Below are positions 11,791 to 60,632 of a stretch of 64,000 nt of DNA, one piece after another. A program made the position numbers and the translations under genes. This stretch comes from Polyangium mundeleinium (lineage in GTDB: Bacteria > Myxococcota_A > Polyangia > Polyangiales > Polyangiaceae), in contig NZ_JAQNDO010000001.1 of the NCBI RefSeq assembly GCF_028369105.1, positions 4,742,501-4,806,500 on the forward strand. Reading direction: 5' to 3'. Under the pieces are notes generated by a model. The model had not been told where the DNA came from, searched no databases, and saw only the letters and a program-made list of their open reading frames with translations. Every line of letters starts with the position of its first letter. Position 1 is the first letter of the stretch.

Positions 11791-12444
11791 GTGAAGGAAA
11801 ACACCCTCGTCATCCACGAGATCTATTCGAGCATCCAGGGCGAATCGACGTTCGCCGGGCTGCCGTGCACGTTCGTGCGCCTGACCGGCTGCAACCTGCG
11901 TTGCGCCTGGTGCGACACGACGCAGGCCTTTTACGGCGGAAAACGAATGCCACGCGACGAGGTGCGGGAGAAGGCGCTCGCGTTCGGCACGCCGCTCGTC
12001 GAGCTCACGGGGGGCGAGCCGCTCCTGCAGCCCGGCGCGATCCCGCTCTTGCGAGAGCTCTGCGACGCGGGGCGTACGGTCCTCGTGGAGACGAGCGGCG
12101 AGGCCGACGTCTCGCGCGTCGATCCCCGCGTCCACAAGATCATGGACCTCAAAGCACCCGGCAGCGGCGAGAGCCATCGAAACCGCTGGTCGAACCTCGC
12201 GCACATCGGCCCGCGCGACGAGATCAAGTTCGTGCTGTCCGATCGCGCCGACTACGAATGGATGCGCGACGTGATCCGCGAGCGCGAGCTCTCGCGGCTC
12301 GGGTGCACGCTGCTCGCCTCCGCGGTGTGGGGTAAGCTCTCGCCGAAGGATCTCGTGGCCTGGGTCCTCGAAGACGCCCTGCTCGTGCGCGTGCAGGTCC
12401 AGCTCCACAAGGTGATCTGGGGCGCGGACACGCAAGGCGTGTAG
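11791..12444 (+). CDS. queE: 7-carboxy-7-deazaguanine synthase
   Basis: QueE (217 residues) is a radical-SAM enzyme that contracts the ring of carboxytetrahydropterin to 7-carboxy-7-deazaguanine, a step toward queuosine in tRNA. The iron-sulfur motif CNLRCAWC (Cys34, Cys38, Cys41) has the CX3CX2C spacing, preceded by SIQGESTFAG and followed by LTGGEPLL and an ETSG strand. A GTG start is used 16 bases after birA. No queC, queD or queF lies next to it, so the rest of the pathway must be elsewhere. A structured 3' module follows the stop codon. Confidence 0.92.
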   Translation: MKENTLVIHEIYSSIQGESTFAGLPCTFVRLTGCNLRCAWCDTTQAFYGGKRMPRDEVREKALAFGTPLVELTGGEPLLQPGAIPLLRELCDAGRTVLVETSGEADVSRVDPRVHKIMDLKAPGSGESHRNRWSNLAHIGPRDEIKFVLSDRADYEWMRDVIRERELSRLGCTLLASAVWGKLSPKDLVAWVLEDALLVRVQVQLHKVIWGADTQGV

Positions 12445-12558
12445 CGCCGCGCCGGGGCGCTGCCCCGGACCCCGCGGGGGGCTGTCCGCCCCCTCGACCC
12501 CGGACCAGGCACAGCCTGGACCGGGGGTTGAAAAACTGCGCTCCGCGCAGTTTTTCAA
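12445..12558 (+). repeat. Structured 3'-end module, copy A (after queE)
   Basis: It begins at the queE stop codon. In order it holds hairpin-forming GGGGCGCTGCCCC, then GGGGCTGTCCGCCCC, then CCAGGC-ACA-GCCTGG, then a perfect 14-bp stem (12528-12541 with 12545-12558) closed by TCC. The last stem carries its T-run inside the stem, so it is not a textbook intrinsic terminator. Copies B and C share the same order and position relative to the stop codon, with different stem sequences. Confidence 0.8.
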
Positions 12559-12648
12559 ACAGGCCGACGAAGAACCCAGGTTGCCAGCCGAACCCGCAGC
12601 GCGGCTGTCTTGGTGGGTCACGCCGCTGCCGGTCTTGACCGGGCCTGT

Positions 12649-12772
12649 TCGATGAGCTGCGCGGAGCGCAGTTCATCGAGCCTGGGTCCAGCCCCTGGCT
12701 GGTCCGGGTCCAGGGGCGGATAGCCCCGGGTGGGGCCTGGGGCAACGCCCCAGCGCAGCGGCCCAGGGATCG
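12649..12772 (-). repeat. Structured 3'-end module, copy B (after the HEAT-like gene)
   Basis: Read on the minus strand from the stop at 12774, this is the same series as copy A: GGGGCGTTGCCCC, GGGGCTATCCGCCCC, CCAGC-CAGGG-GCTGG and a 14-bp stem (12649-12662 with 12666-12679, one G-T pair, loop of 3). Copies A and B face each other, and together with a 90-base unstructured core (12559-12648) they fill the whole gap between two convergent genes. I see nothing else in that core. Confidence 0.8.
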
Positions 12773-12773
12773 T

Positions 12774-13724
12774 TCAGCGCCGGAGCGGGCTGTTCCTGAA
12801 CCGCTCGATCAGCGCATCGAGCGCCGCTTGATCCCCCGGGCGAGCGCCGCGCTTCGCGGCCTCCGCGAGATCCGGCGTCGACGCGTGATCCACCATCAGC
12901 ACGGCCTTCAGGATGGCCGCGCGCGCGTCCGTCTCGTACCGCAGGTACGAGGTCACGAGCGCCTGCGCTGCGGTCGCGCGCACGGCCGCCTCCTCACCGC
13001 TTGCCGCGATGATGGGCGTCTTCCAGGCCCACGCCGAGCCCACGTCGCCGAGCGATCGGGCCACGAGGATCGCGGTCTCCGCGTCCGGATGCGCGAGCAG
13101 CGTGGACGCGAGCGCCTCGGCCACCACGAGCCTTCGGCAATCGCCCATCCCCGCGAGCACGCCCTTCTGCTTCGGTCCCTCTTTTTTCGCCAGCGCCACG
13201 AGCTTCTGCGCCGCCGCGTCCGTGCCGAGCTTGCCGAGCGCCGAGGCCGCGGCGCGCACGAGATCCGTGTGCATCTCGGTCGTGTCGATGATCGCGAAGA
13301 GCACGGGCGCCGCGCGGCCGTCCCGGAGCGAGCCCACGGCCTCCACGAGGCCCACGCGCCACGCGTGCCACGCGTCGTCGGGCATGTCGCCGCGTGGCTT
13401 CGCCTCGATCGCGAGCTCGTTCAGCATCGGCAGGAGCGCGTCCTTGCCGAGGCCCTTCAGGATGGCCGCGACCGGCACGTAACGACCACGCTTCTGCGCG
13501 TCGAGCGCGGGCATGTCCTCCCGCAGCCGCGCGAGCGTGTCGAACGCCGCGGGGTTCTCGCGGCGCGCCACGCCGATCGCCTGGACGAGCGTCGCCCGAT
13601 CCTGCGCCGCGAGCCGCTCCGGCCCGATCCACACGCCATCGGCCGCGTTCGCTGCGCCCGTGAGCGCCGAGAGCACGAGCCCCGCTGCGACGAGGCCGAT
13701 CCCCAAGACACGCTTCGCCTTCAT
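12774..13724 (-). CDS. Exported HEAT-like repeat protein
   Basis: This 316-residue protein has a signal peptide (residues 1-28, ending ANAAD) and then all-helical repeats of about 35-45 residues such as LVRAAASALGKLGTDAAAQKL and VRATAAQALVTSYLRYE, the HEAT/PBS-type pattern. HEAT repeats bind other proteins. The start is ATG at 13724; its first bases overlap the stop codon of the upstream deiminase-like gene (ATGA), so the two are translationally coupled and may work together. It has no catalytic motif that I can see. Confidence 0.7.
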   Translation of the reverse strand: MKAKRVLGIGLVAAGLVLSALTGAANAADGVWIGPERLAAQDRATLVQAIGVARRENPAAFDTLARLREDMPALDAQKRGRYVPVAAILKGLGKDALLPMLNELAIEAKPRGDMPDDAWHAWRVGLVEAVGSLRDGRAAPVLFAIIDTTEMHTDLVRAAASALGKLGTDAAAQKLVALAKKEGPKQKGVLAGMGDCRRLVVAEALASTLLAHPDAETAILVARSLGDVGSAWAWKTPIIAASGEEAAVRATAAQALVTSYLRYETDARAAILKAVLMVDHASTPDLAEAAKRGARPGDQAALDALIERFRNSPLRR

Positions 13725-22292: not shown

Positions 22293-22589
22293 ATGCGGGA
22301 ACGAATCGCCGAGACCCTCGGAGACGTCCACTGGAGCGACCTCCGCGCGCACATCGCGCGCGACGCCGTCATCATCGTCGACGACGCGCTCGATCTGCTC
22401 GACGTCGGCGTGGCCCTCGCGAAGAACGACGTGCCCGCCGTCGACGCGTGGATCCGCGCGGGCAAACTCCAGAAGCCCACGGCCGAGGAGCTCACGCGCT
22501 GGTCGCTCGACGCGAGCACACGCTTCCCCGCAGCCATCGTGCAGCCGTTCGTCCTGATCCGACGGCCCCCCGCGAAGGTATTGTCCTAG
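22293..22589 (+). CDS. DUF2288 family protein
   Basis: This 98-residue protein matches the DUF2288 pattern: VHWSDLRAHIARDAVIIVDD, LDLLDVGVALAKNDV, the WIRAGKLQKPTAEEL helix and the final AIVQPFVLIRRP. The family is small and of unknown function. It diverges from hisA. The 21-bp tandem repeat array starts about 10 bases after its stop codon. Confidence 0.75.
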   Translation: MRERIAETLGDVHWSDLRAHIARDAVIIVDDALDLLDVGVALAKNDVPAVDAWIRAGKLQKPTAEELTRWSLDASTRFPAAIVQPFVLIRRPPAKVLS

Positions 22590-22597
22590 TCGCGAGT

Positions 22598-23112
22598 GCG
22601 CGTCTCCAGGTCGTGTGCACGCGTCTCCAGGTCGTGTGCACGCGTCTCCAGGTCGTGTGCACGCGTCTCCAGGTCGTGTGCACGCGTCTCCAGGTCGTGT
22701 GCACGCATCTCCAGGTCGTGTGCACAAGTCTCCAAGTTGCGTGCACACGTCTCCAAGTTGCGTGCGCGCGTCTCCAGGTCGTGTGCACGCGTCTCCAGGT
22801 CGTGTGCACGCGTCTCCAGGTCGCGTGCACAAGTCTCCAAGTTGCGTGCACACGTCTCCAAGTTGCGTGCGCGCGTGTTCCTCGTCACGAACACGCGTCT
22901 CCAGGTCGTGTGCACGCGTCTCCAGGTCGTGTGCACGCGTCTCCAGGTCGTGTGCACGCGTCTCCAGGTCGTGTGCACGCGTCTCCAGGTCGTGTGCACG
23001 CGTCTCCAGGTCGTGTGCACGCGTCTCCAGGTCGCGTGCGCACGTGTCTTTTGCCACGTGCACGCGTCATCGAGGTCGCGTGCGGGCGCCTTCTGGTCGC
23101 GTGCGCGCGTCT
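22598..23112. repeat. 21-bp tandem repeat array (minisatellite)
   Basis: About twenty recognisable copies of a 21-base unit (consensus GTCTCCAGGTCGTGTGCACGC) run head to tail, followed by degenerate ones near the 23114 end. The period is exactly 21 from 22608 to 22860, then a gap of 43 (two units plus one base) around a degenerate block at 22876-22895, then 21 again to 23029. Two variant blocks (AAGTCTCCAAGTTGC, then ACGTCTCCAAGTTGC) occur at 22727-22761 and 22832-22866, a higher-order pattern. It lies between convergent stop codons. All frames stay open; one minus frame would read as heptads of AHDLETR, but no start or ribosome site supports a gene. Confidence 0.9.
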
Positions 23113-58808: not shown

Positions 58809-59855
58809 ATGACGGCGCGACCTCGTCTGCAGCGGGCTCTGCCCGGCGGGCTTCGGTTCGGGCGGGACCGCCGCGGCCCCAGGGCCAAAGGGTGCGTTTC
58901 GTTCGGACGCGTGGCGCTCGCCGCAGCGACGGGCCTCGCGTTCGCCTTCGTATCCCAAGCCGCGCGCGCGGACGATTTGCAGCAGTTCGAGCTCGGCAAG
59001 ACGCGCTTCGACGCAGCCGAGTACGACGAGGCGGCTACGCGTTTCACGGCGATGCTCGATCCGGCGCAGAAGCCTTGCGAGTCTGTCCCGACGAGCGGCA
59101 CTGCGCCGTGCCGCCTCACGGACACGGATCTCATCCAGCGCGCGCGCACGCTCCGCGCAGCCTCGCTCGTCGCGCTCAAGCGCTACGACGAGGCCGAGGC
59201 CGAGATCGCCACGATCCTCCGGCAAAACCCGACGTATTCGCCCGATCCCGCGGTGTTCCCGCAGGAGGTCGTGGATCGCTTCACGCTCGTGCGGGGTCGC
59301 CTGCGCGAGGAGCTCGACGCGGCGGAGCAGAAGCGCGCCGACGAGGAGCGGCAGCGGCGCATCGCGGAGCAGAAAGCGAAGGAGGAGGAAAAACGCTGGA
59401 TCGAGTCGCTCGTGAAGGCGGCCTCCGAGCGGCAGATCATCGTGCAAAACTCGCGCATCGTCGCGGCGATGCCGTTCGGCATCGGCCAGTTCCAGAACGG
59501 AAGCCGCAAGCTCGGCTGGACCTTCGCCATCACGCAGGCGTTCACGGGCGCGACGTCGATCGTCGCGTCGCAGGTCTTCAACTACTACGCGAGCTTCGAT
59601 CAGACGATCGCGACGGGGGCCGAGCGCGAGGAGCTCGTGCGTCGCCAGCAGATCACGCTGATCATCAACCAGGTCGCGTTCAGTCTATGGGCCGGTCTCA
59701 CGGTGGCGGGCATCGTGCAGGCGCAGATCGCGTACGTGCCGCAGAAGGTGACGATCGAGAAGCGCCCCGTGCCGCCGCGCCCCGCGGTGCGCGTCGTGCC
59801 GACGGTGGCGGTGACGCCGGACGGGTTTGGCGTGGGCGTCGTCGGCGCTTTTTGA
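58809..59855 (+). CDS. Exported TPR-like protein with membrane segments
   Basis: This 348-residue protein has an N-terminal basic extension and a signal-like helix (ALAAATGLAFAFVSQAARA, about residues 36-54). Residues about 58-130 contain tetratricopeptide-like helices (LGKTRFDAAEYDEAATRF, SLVALKRYDEAEAEI), then a charged coiled-coil (EEKRW, EQKRADEERQRR), and C-terminal hydrophobic segments with AMPFGIGQFQNGSRKLGWTF, which resembles DUF5683-type proteins. The role is unknown; it is probably a cell-envelope protein. It lies 85 bases after the coupled kinase gene. Confidence 0.6.
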   Translation: MTARPRLQRALPGGLRFGRDRRGPRAKGCVSFGRVALAAATGLAFAFVSQAARADDLQQFELGKTRFDAAEYDEAATRFTAMLDPAQKPCESVPTSGTAPCRLTDTDLIQRARTLRAASLVALKRYDEAEAEIATILRQNPTYSPDPAVFPQEVVDRFTLVRGRLREELDAAEQKRADEERQRRIAEQKAKEEEKRWIESLVKAASERQIIVQNSRIVAAMPFGIGQFQNGSRKLGWTFAITQAFTGATSIVASQVFNYYASFDQTIATGAEREELVRRQQITLIINQVAFSLWAGLTVAGIVQAQIAYVPQKVTIEKRPVPPRPAVRVVPTVAVTPDGFGVGVVGAF

Positions 59856-59887: not shown

Positions 59888-59995
59888 TGCATCGACCGCA
59901 TCGCGGTCGATGCACCAAAGGTCCAGGGCTGGCCCTGGTCCGGGTCGAGGGGTGGACAACCCCTCGTCGGGTCCGGGGTGAAACCCCGGCGCTAC
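59888..59995 (-). repeat. Structured 3'-end module, copy C
   Basis: Read on the minus strand from the 60000 stop, this gives GGGGTTTCACCCC, GGGGTTGTCCACCCC, CCAGGGC-CA-GCCCTGG and a perfect 12-bp stem (59888-59899 with 59903-59914, loop of 3). It is the same order as copies A and B, with different stem sequences. Confidence 0.8.
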
Positions 59996-59999
59996 GCTC

Positions 60000-60632
60000 T
60001 CAGGTGCTGCGGCTGCTCGTCGGCCTGACGCCCGGAGGGCCGTCGTTGTGCTCGCGGCAGCCGGTGCGCGACATCATTTTCGCGCGGAACGACACGCGGC
60101 CGCACGTGTCGCAGACGCAGAGGTTCTGGTCGTACAAGTTGCGGTTCGAAAGGATGTCGGCGGCGAAGAGGCTGAGCACGATGTCGCTCAGCGAGTCTTC
60201 CTTCTGCGGCCGCGCGATCCACGAGGCCTTCGTGCCGATGCCGATCGGCTGCACGCGGCTCGACTTCGTGGCGAGCTCGAGGAAGCCGTCCTCGGGTGGA
60301 TCCGTGATGAGTCCGCGCAACGTGAAGACGACGCGCGACCGCGCGCGGCCGAGGATGCGATCGAGCAACGCTTTCGTTGCTGAGGGCGGCGCGCCCACGG
60401 TGTTCAGCGTGTCGAGCAGGAGCGTGCCTGCCATCGGCTCGGCGACTTGGACGGGGCGCTGCATGCGGCCTGCGCGCACGAGGTACTCCTCGATCCATGT
60501 CTTGAGCTCCCGCGCGCCCATGGCCCCGATGCCGACACCCTCGACGAACGCGAGCGCTCCGATGAGTGCGCCGCGGTCGTTGTCCGCGCCGGTGAGGAGG
60601 GTCGGGATCGAGCTCGTGGACGTAGGAGGCAT
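60000..60632 (-). CDS. Conserved protein with a C-terminal zinc-finger motif
   Basis: I do not recognise this 210-residue protein. It starts with PPTSTSSIPTLL after AAAGGA (about eight bases upstream), has a mixed alpha/beta body with ELKTWIEEYLVRAGRM and LDTLNTVGAPPSATKALLDRIL, and ends with CDTCGRVSFRAK...C..H, a CX2C-X14-CX2H metal-binding pattern. The C-terminal zinc site suggests binding of nucleic acid or protein. The start at 60632 is set by that ribosome site; a longer upstream frame is not supported. A structured 3' module follows the stop. Confidence 0.55.
   Translation of the reverse strand: MPPTSTSSIPTLLTGADNDRGALIGALAFVEGVGIGAMGARELKTWIEEYLVRAGRMQRPVQVAEPMAGTLLLDTLNTVGAPPSATKALLDRILGRARSRVVFTLRGLITDPPEDGFLELATKSSRVQPIGIGTKASWIARPQKEDSLSDIVLSLFAADILSNRNLYDQNLCVCDTCGRVSFRAKMMSRTGCREHNDGPPGVRPTSSRST

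Follow-up and report, generated by a model that had tools for sequence, protein, structure and literature searches.

In the window, which is the whole 64,000-nt stretch of Polyangium mundeleinium DNA under analysis, two facing hairpin-rich arms (A and B) occupied the interval between the stop codons of a radical-SAM gene and a HEAT-repeat gene, and a solo copy (C) was located between two convergent genes further along (Table 1). The gene upstream of arm A had been named queE in an earlier note made from the letters of the window; Pfam supported Radical_SAM alone, and the gene facing arm B matched HEAT_2. The hairpins described in that note were present in A, B and C at the places it gave. When compared with dinucleotide shuffles, A, B and C folded with z values of -5.2, -3.7, and -5.2 respectively, and 0 of 200 shuffles folded as well in each case. 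Arms A and B were inverted repeats of each other over 67 nt (79%), and the pair, treated as single-stranded DNA, folded into one long hairpin (z -9.97; 0 of 100 shuffles as good). Comparison of the window with 4227 Rfam families gave no match above the gathering score and three sub-threshold hits at 12400-12800.

Table 1. Coordinates of the paired unit (arms A and B) and of solo copy C in the window
Feature	Position	Strand	Description
Whole unit A+B	12445-12773	.	inverted pair, about 330 bp
Arm A	12445-12558	+	module with stems 1-4; directly 3' of stop TAG 12442-12444 of the radical-SAM gene
A stem 1	12452-12468	+	CCGGGGC-GCT-GCCCCGG; columns covary in the alignment
A stem 2	12474-12496 (about)	+	(G)CGGGGGGC-TGTCC-GCCCCCTCG
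A stem 3	12505-12519	+	CCAGGC-ACA-GCCTGG
A stem 4	12528-12558	+	perfect 14-bp hairpin; A-tract/T-tract, bidirectional-terminator form
Spacer between arms A and B	12559-12641	.	alike across many of the pairs read
Arm B	12642-12773	-	inverted module; ends at HEAT-repeat gene stop 12774-12776
B stem 1	12737-12753	-	
B stem 2	12710-12729	-	
B stem 3	12688-12702	-	
B stem 4	12649-12679	-	
Copy C	59889-59999	-	solo module; convergent genes, stops 59853-59855 (+) and 60000-60002 (-)
C stem 1	59973-59989	-	
C stem 2	59946-59966	-	
C stem 3	59923-59938	-	
C stem 4	59889-59913	-	

The window's own genome (G000, 13.25 Mb in two contigs) and five other Polyangium genomes (G001-G005) were searched for further copies; in four of the five, the loci match in sequence those of P. 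fumosum DSM 14668 and Polyangium sp. y55x31, 6x1, and 15x6. A blastn search of G000 with arm A gave 102 matches, of which 33 were short, lay on the opposite strand and came from the palindromic final stem. With 40 of 225 first-look candidates scored, at least 40 full-length copies with 89-100% identity were obtained, arm A itself counted, and at least 29 weaker inverted partner arms lay beside full-length copies. Since the copies had inverted partners next to them, A and B form one recurring unit. The two facing copies reported in the earlier note are therefore both real, but as two arms of a unit that was found as 38 facing pairs in the fetched parts of G000, with two pairs sharing one right arm.

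Each module spanned about 110 nt and contained four hairpins. Stem 1 had a GGGG/CCCC core, stem 2 read GGGG-TGTCC-CCCC, stem 3 had a CCAG/CTGG core flanked by GGACC-like linkers, and stem 4 was longer. Modules occurred either alone, as in C, or in pairs that face inward, stem 1 being on the outer side; the two cores of a pair were separated by about 214 or 240 bp, at times more. Among the 77 units analysed in five genomes (see below), 40 pairs were counted. Regular expressions that fixed the GGGG/CCCC and CCA/TGG cores distinguished eighteen types of stem 1 and nine of stem 3, loops included, in 113 modules each. The best identity to another copy in G000 segments had a median of 0.958 for paired modules (n=51) versus 0.93 for solos (n=15). 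At four loci (L083, L096, L105, and L123), an extra GATGGGGCTACGCTCGGCAAGCCGAGCTACGCCCC-like hairpin, named hairpin H and repeat-like itself, was nested at varying points of solo modules.

A strict core pattern derived from A, B and C, counting both arms of each pair, gave 232 hits in G000, and 59, 271, 377, 268 (G004), and 506 hits in the other five genus genomes. The reversed-pattern control gave 0 hits in G000, and the pattern itself gave 0 hits in 53 genomes outside Polyangium. These counts bear on whether the hairpins could have arisen by chance in a GC-rich genome. High G+C favours GGGG/CCCC hairpins, and a loose core pattern allowing 3 mismatches was found 7 times in the window against a shuffle mean of 4.4; yet the folding shuffles, the reversed-pattern control and the conservation among orthologous and paralogous copies refuted a chance origin, which we regard as extremely improbable. 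Among the first 100 of the 232 places in G000, listed by position on contig C1, the distribution looked uneven over the first 6 Mb: 4 lay below 2.7 Mb and 74 at 4.5-6.0 Mb.

As the earlier note had proposed, a covariance model was built and searched against Polyangiaceae. The model was made from 59 modules, after 8 of 67 cluster representatives were excluded (most of them truncated, interrupted by an insertion sequence (IS), or carrying extra hairpins). Strong matches were obtained in 6/6 genus genomes (best E 6e-32 or lower). With strict filters and at most 36 candidates scored per genome, weak matches (E 2e-9 to 7e-4) were obtained in at least 5 of 92 Polyangiaceae genomes outside the genus, with 19 in G028 and 1 each in G027, G077, G088, and G091. 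A four-hairpin relative with different stems and similar linkers was seen at L163 157-282 of G091, a member of another Polyangiaceae genus. Based on this comparison of sequences, the hairpin architecture may be older than Polyangium, with an expansion that is specific to the genus. A module-like sequence was also seen near the end of L165 (G027, other Polyangiaceae genus).

We further investigated where the units lie relative to genes. Genes were called over 2.37 Mb of sequence drawn from five genomes, with our own hexamer gene finder rather than published annotation. Of 142 nhmmer hits, 13 were discarded for overlap with a stronger one, and 7 of the remaining 129, below 40 bits, were left out. 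Of 81 units placed, 77 were analysed, 4 being at segment edges. None of the 77 lay inside a called gene; 47 were convergent, 23 tandem, and 7 divergent. Under the assumption of independent units, convergent placement exceeded the expectation from intergenic bases with the units removed (13%, p 1e-22) and from gaps (19%, p 4e-16), and divergent placement fell below expectation by bases (36%, p 8e-8) and by gap count (p 0.015). A smaller count with covariance-model hits agreed (32 units: 16 convergent, 14 tandem, and 2 divergent). The median distance from the unit edge was 20 nt to a stop codon and 174 nt to a start codon. The proposal that hits would lie next to stop codons rather than at random positions was thus upheld. 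As to the same orientation at each stop, it was usual and not strict: 8 of 13 solos in tandem contexts pointed the same way as the upstream gene and 5 the opposite way, this count including arms of longer composites whose partner lay more than 450 bp away, and within 70 nt of the stop 7 of 8 were co-directional and 1 was against. The smaller count gave 12 co-directional solos and 4 against. A G followed the TGA stop in 60% of 68 stops adjoining units, versus 31% of 1168 others.

The placement at gene ends raises the question of termination, which the earlier note had offered as one function. An intrinsic (Rho-independent) terminator consists of a GC hairpin followed by a U-run. Arm A combined both, and modules of its type share the GC hairpin with an A-tract/T-tract; B and C did not have this combination. 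A T-run of at least 4 in the last 30 nt or the following 20 nt was found in 27 of 114 modules and was lacking in 87, and a general role as intrinsic terminator, being unlikely on this count, was rejected. The same note had described the final stem as containing a T-run and being unlike a textbook terminator; stem 4 of A, however, does have the bidirectional-terminator form, which is lacking in B, C and most modules examined. Moreover, 264 of 308 convergent gaps carried no unit, the median length of these 264 being 12 nt, indicating that the element is dispensable there. A barrier to read-through or to exonucleases is possible.

Orthologous sites were then compared by eye, with presence and absence not polarised with a tree, and four sites had a clean empty ortholog. 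At site 1, the pair carried by G005 is framed by a TGA and a TCA stop; the distance between these stops is 6 bp in G000 and 7 bp in G001. At site 2, a solo was present in G001 and G005, whereas G000 lacks it and has its stops 1 bp from each other. Site 3 (L316) held no unit in G004, whose two genes overlap there; the pair found in G003 interrupts this overlap, with the left gene terminated by the element's own TAG, in its GCGTAGCG foot. Site 4 (copy C) was empty in G001, with a gap of 10 bp, and occupied in the other five genus genomes. Candidate 3-bp duplications, each resting on one genome at its site, were GAG (G005, site 1), GAG (G001, site 2), and ACT (G003, site 3), and removing the unit together with one 3-base repeat gave, by eye, the empty-ortholog length at these three sites. 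No such duplication was found at the C site, in the G005 copy of site 2, or in the G000 and G005 copies at L316. The other suggestion of the earlier note, that of a mobile element with insertion at gene ends, was supported by the number of copies, by the empty orthologous sites and by where the units lie.

Elsewhere, module content changed at positions that were retained. The site of the window pair was occupied in 6/6 genomes, by a pair in G000, G002, G003, and G005, with the arm order of G003 reversed relative to G005, and by a solo in G001; the G004 contig ends behind the first module. The L013 site was likewise occupied in 6/6 genomes, by a pair in four and a solo in G001 and G004. With the C site, three sites thus keep changing modules in 6/6, 6/6, and 5/6 genomes, which could reflect functional retention rather than recurrent mobility. 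At the L002 site, a module was present in 2 of 5 genomes with a match (480 nt read). The convergent gap at 22521-23111 of the window is filled by a 21-bp minisatellite, whereas in G005 a module pair occupies the orthologous gap (C242, about 93579).

The claim that stem sequences differ among copies while pairing is preserved was borne out in the 59-module alignment, so that the stems are conserved well beyond the three copies of the window. We found 94.6% of cells paired versus 85.7% in shuffles, and 178 cells changed on both sides versus 56.1, with 0 of 500 shuffles reaching either value. These cells count sequences and not independent events, and because stem types are few, few independent events may underlie the double-change counts. 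Two-sided changes were found at 16 of 34 pairs versus 11.3 in shuffles; the number of further pair types was a weak measure (28 versus 25.4, with 48 of 500 shuffles reaching it). When the partner was slid by 1-3 columns, pairing fell to 33-51%. In alignment A2 the C-type rows were misaligned in the last stem, so that helix 4 was undercounted.

In stems 1-3, five variable pairs (columns 15-31, 16-30, 21-25, 47-53, and 77-85 of alignment A2) together had 83 double changes, no G-U cell, and 3 unpaired cells. In stem 1, taking the best-fitting window per hit, 805 pairs comprised 792 Watson-Crick pairs, 1 G-U, and 12 mismatches. At other columns the largest numbers of G-U cells were 9 in stem 2 (42-58), 5 in stem 3 (68-92), and 8 in stem 4 (98-128). 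Five orthologous copies of the C site had 0 uncompensated changes in stems 1-3 or the inner 11 bp of stem 4, had compensated changes in stems 2, 3, and 4, and differed at some loop and linker bases; the aligned slices omit the end of stem 4, which was read from the site comparisons. Orthologous copies were also seen to swap hairpins.

The earlier note took compensatory change as a sign of selection on RNA structure. The covariation is real, but selection at the RNA level was not established by it, since G-U-free pairs and hairpin swaps are also expected from palindrome maintenance at the DNA level or conversion between copies. Given 83 double changes without a G-U cell, maintenance of the DNA palindrome and RNA selection are equally likely. 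A family of structured 3' untranslated RNAs, serving in termination or as a Rho barrier or 3'-exonuclease barrier, held by RNA-level selection and spread by duplication, would fit the strong covariation, the C-site orthologues free of uncompensated change, the short distance to stop codons with 7 of 8 near-stop tandem solos co-directional, and the window-pair and L013 sites occupied in all six genomes. It sits poorly with double changes that avoid G-U (1 in 805 in stem 1), with a T-run in 27 of 114 modules, and with convergent gaps that are mostly free of units, and we consider this explanation possible but doubtful.

A different reading treats the modules as mobile 3'-end cassettes that insert precisely between convergent stops, bring their own stop when genes overlap, and swap whole hairpins, with the covariation arising from copying of the DNA palindrome and not from RNA selection. 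We put this forward tentatively and think it rather unlikely. If true, it would be a counter-example to covariation as proof of functional RNA, and it would provide a non-Y1 route to REPIN-like mobility.

Two candidate mobilisers were examined. The Y1 transposase (PF01797, the RAYT domain) gave no match in G000, G002, and G004, with the control found in 5 of 14 named genomes. Matches were obtained in three of the six genus genomes (G003, G001, and G005), and no module lay within the fetched flanks of about 1.5 kb at these loci. Y1/RAYT was rejected as the mobiliser, the window genome having no match. The second candidate was a Tn5-like transposase of the IS4 family (PF14706, PF01609, and PF02281; IS at L075 2159-3586 and L340), with four near-identical IS copies in G000. 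The ends were read for two copies, one of the four in G000 and one in G002, and both interrupt stem 3 of a module and are accompanied by 9-bp duplications.

If the repeat were a miniature inverted-repeat element (MITE) of this Tn5-like IS, its ends should carry the terminal repeat CTGAGCATGGGTCTC. One longer element (L027/L071) had CTGAGCATGGGTCTC on both sides together with a perfect 9-bp duplication, CCGGCCAGG, and the repeat stood beside one side of 10 pairs (L048, L010, L015, L023, and others) with at most 3 of 18 mismatches, a count made without a shuffled control. Among the 38 pairs, though, the repeat was found at both ends in 1 and at neither end in 27 (at most 3 mismatches), and G004, with its 268 module cores, had no match to the Tn5-like transposase at E 1e-30. 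The Tn5-like IS was therefore rejected as general mobiliser, and an origin of the repeat as its MITE is very unlikely.

The repeat was compared with known systems, as these are described in the available parts of the papers cited. REP families, which occur in gamma-proteobacteria and others, show a convergent and tandem bias, often lie less than 20 bp from a stop codon, supply TAG stops from the element termini, form dimers, and have variable complementary stems (PMC3733652). REPINs are inverted doublets with a predicted single hairpin and compensatory changes (PMC3116915), and REPs serve as IS targets (PMC1525189). The Polyangium repeat resembles both in being a high-copy extragenic palindrome whose inverted doublets are better conserved and are predicted to form one hairpin (PMC3116915, PMC3733652), and in its compensatory changes, convergent and tandem 3'-end bias, TAG supply, and use as IS target (PMC3116915, PMC3733652, PMC1525189). 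Paired modules are closer to other copies than solos are, as in REPINs. Unlike REP, which is a single palindrome of 20-40 bp, the module has four hairpins in about 110 nt. It also differs from REP/REPIN in having no general GTAG or CGTC tag (GTAG in 12 and CGTC in 17 of 112 8-nt feet) and no Y1/RAYT gene detected in the window genome; CGTC REP families are listed without transposase association in the available part of PMC3733652. Because of the different size and tag, and with no cognate Y1 gene detected, we call the repeat REPIN-like and not a REPIN.

Two other systems are similar in part, again from the available parts of the sources. BIMEs (bacterial interspersed mosaic elements) combine palindromic units in alternating orientation as the Polyangium repeat does, but the latter has another sequence, larger units and a host in another phylum (PMC2817692). 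The palindromic repeats of Volvox organelles are likewise selfish-looking intergenic hairpins, nested like hairpin H in the modules, and differ in being organellar and, in mtDNA, AT-rich, with a gene-end preference not mentioned in the available part of the source (PMC2670323). In the one open-access library searched we found no description of Polyangium or myxobacterial repeats of this kind, and the available part of the Sorangium genome paper contains none (PMC3696898).

Together, our results point to a palindromic repeat of Polyangium that is probably non-autonomous, mobile and REPIN-like, with a four-hairpin module mostly arranged in inverted pairs. Its copy number is high, its modules are organised as inverted pairs, it is present or absent at orthologous sites, it is placed at the stop codons of convergent genes or between them, and its expansion is lineage-specific. 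The repeat would be spread by a transposase that recognises the hairpins in trans, mobilisation possibly leaving a 3-bp duplication, and insertion at 3' ends may be either tolerated or targeted. The stems would stay paired because the DNA palindrome itself is recognised and copied, and hairpins may also be exchanged among copies through conversion. Once settled, the repeat may hinder read-through or 3'-exonucleases, which would be a side effect or later use and not the cause of its presence.

The repeat represents a REPIN-like system in which 3 of 6 genus genomes have no detected Y1 transposase. The orthologous sites with hairpin swaps, together with the near-absence of G-U at the variable pairs of stems 1-3, offer a concrete test between RNA function and DNA palindrome. 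With 59-506 cores per genome, mainly at gene ends, the repeat can influence 3' ends and recombination as well as the places where ISs land in this large-genome myxobacterial genus of soil bacteria.
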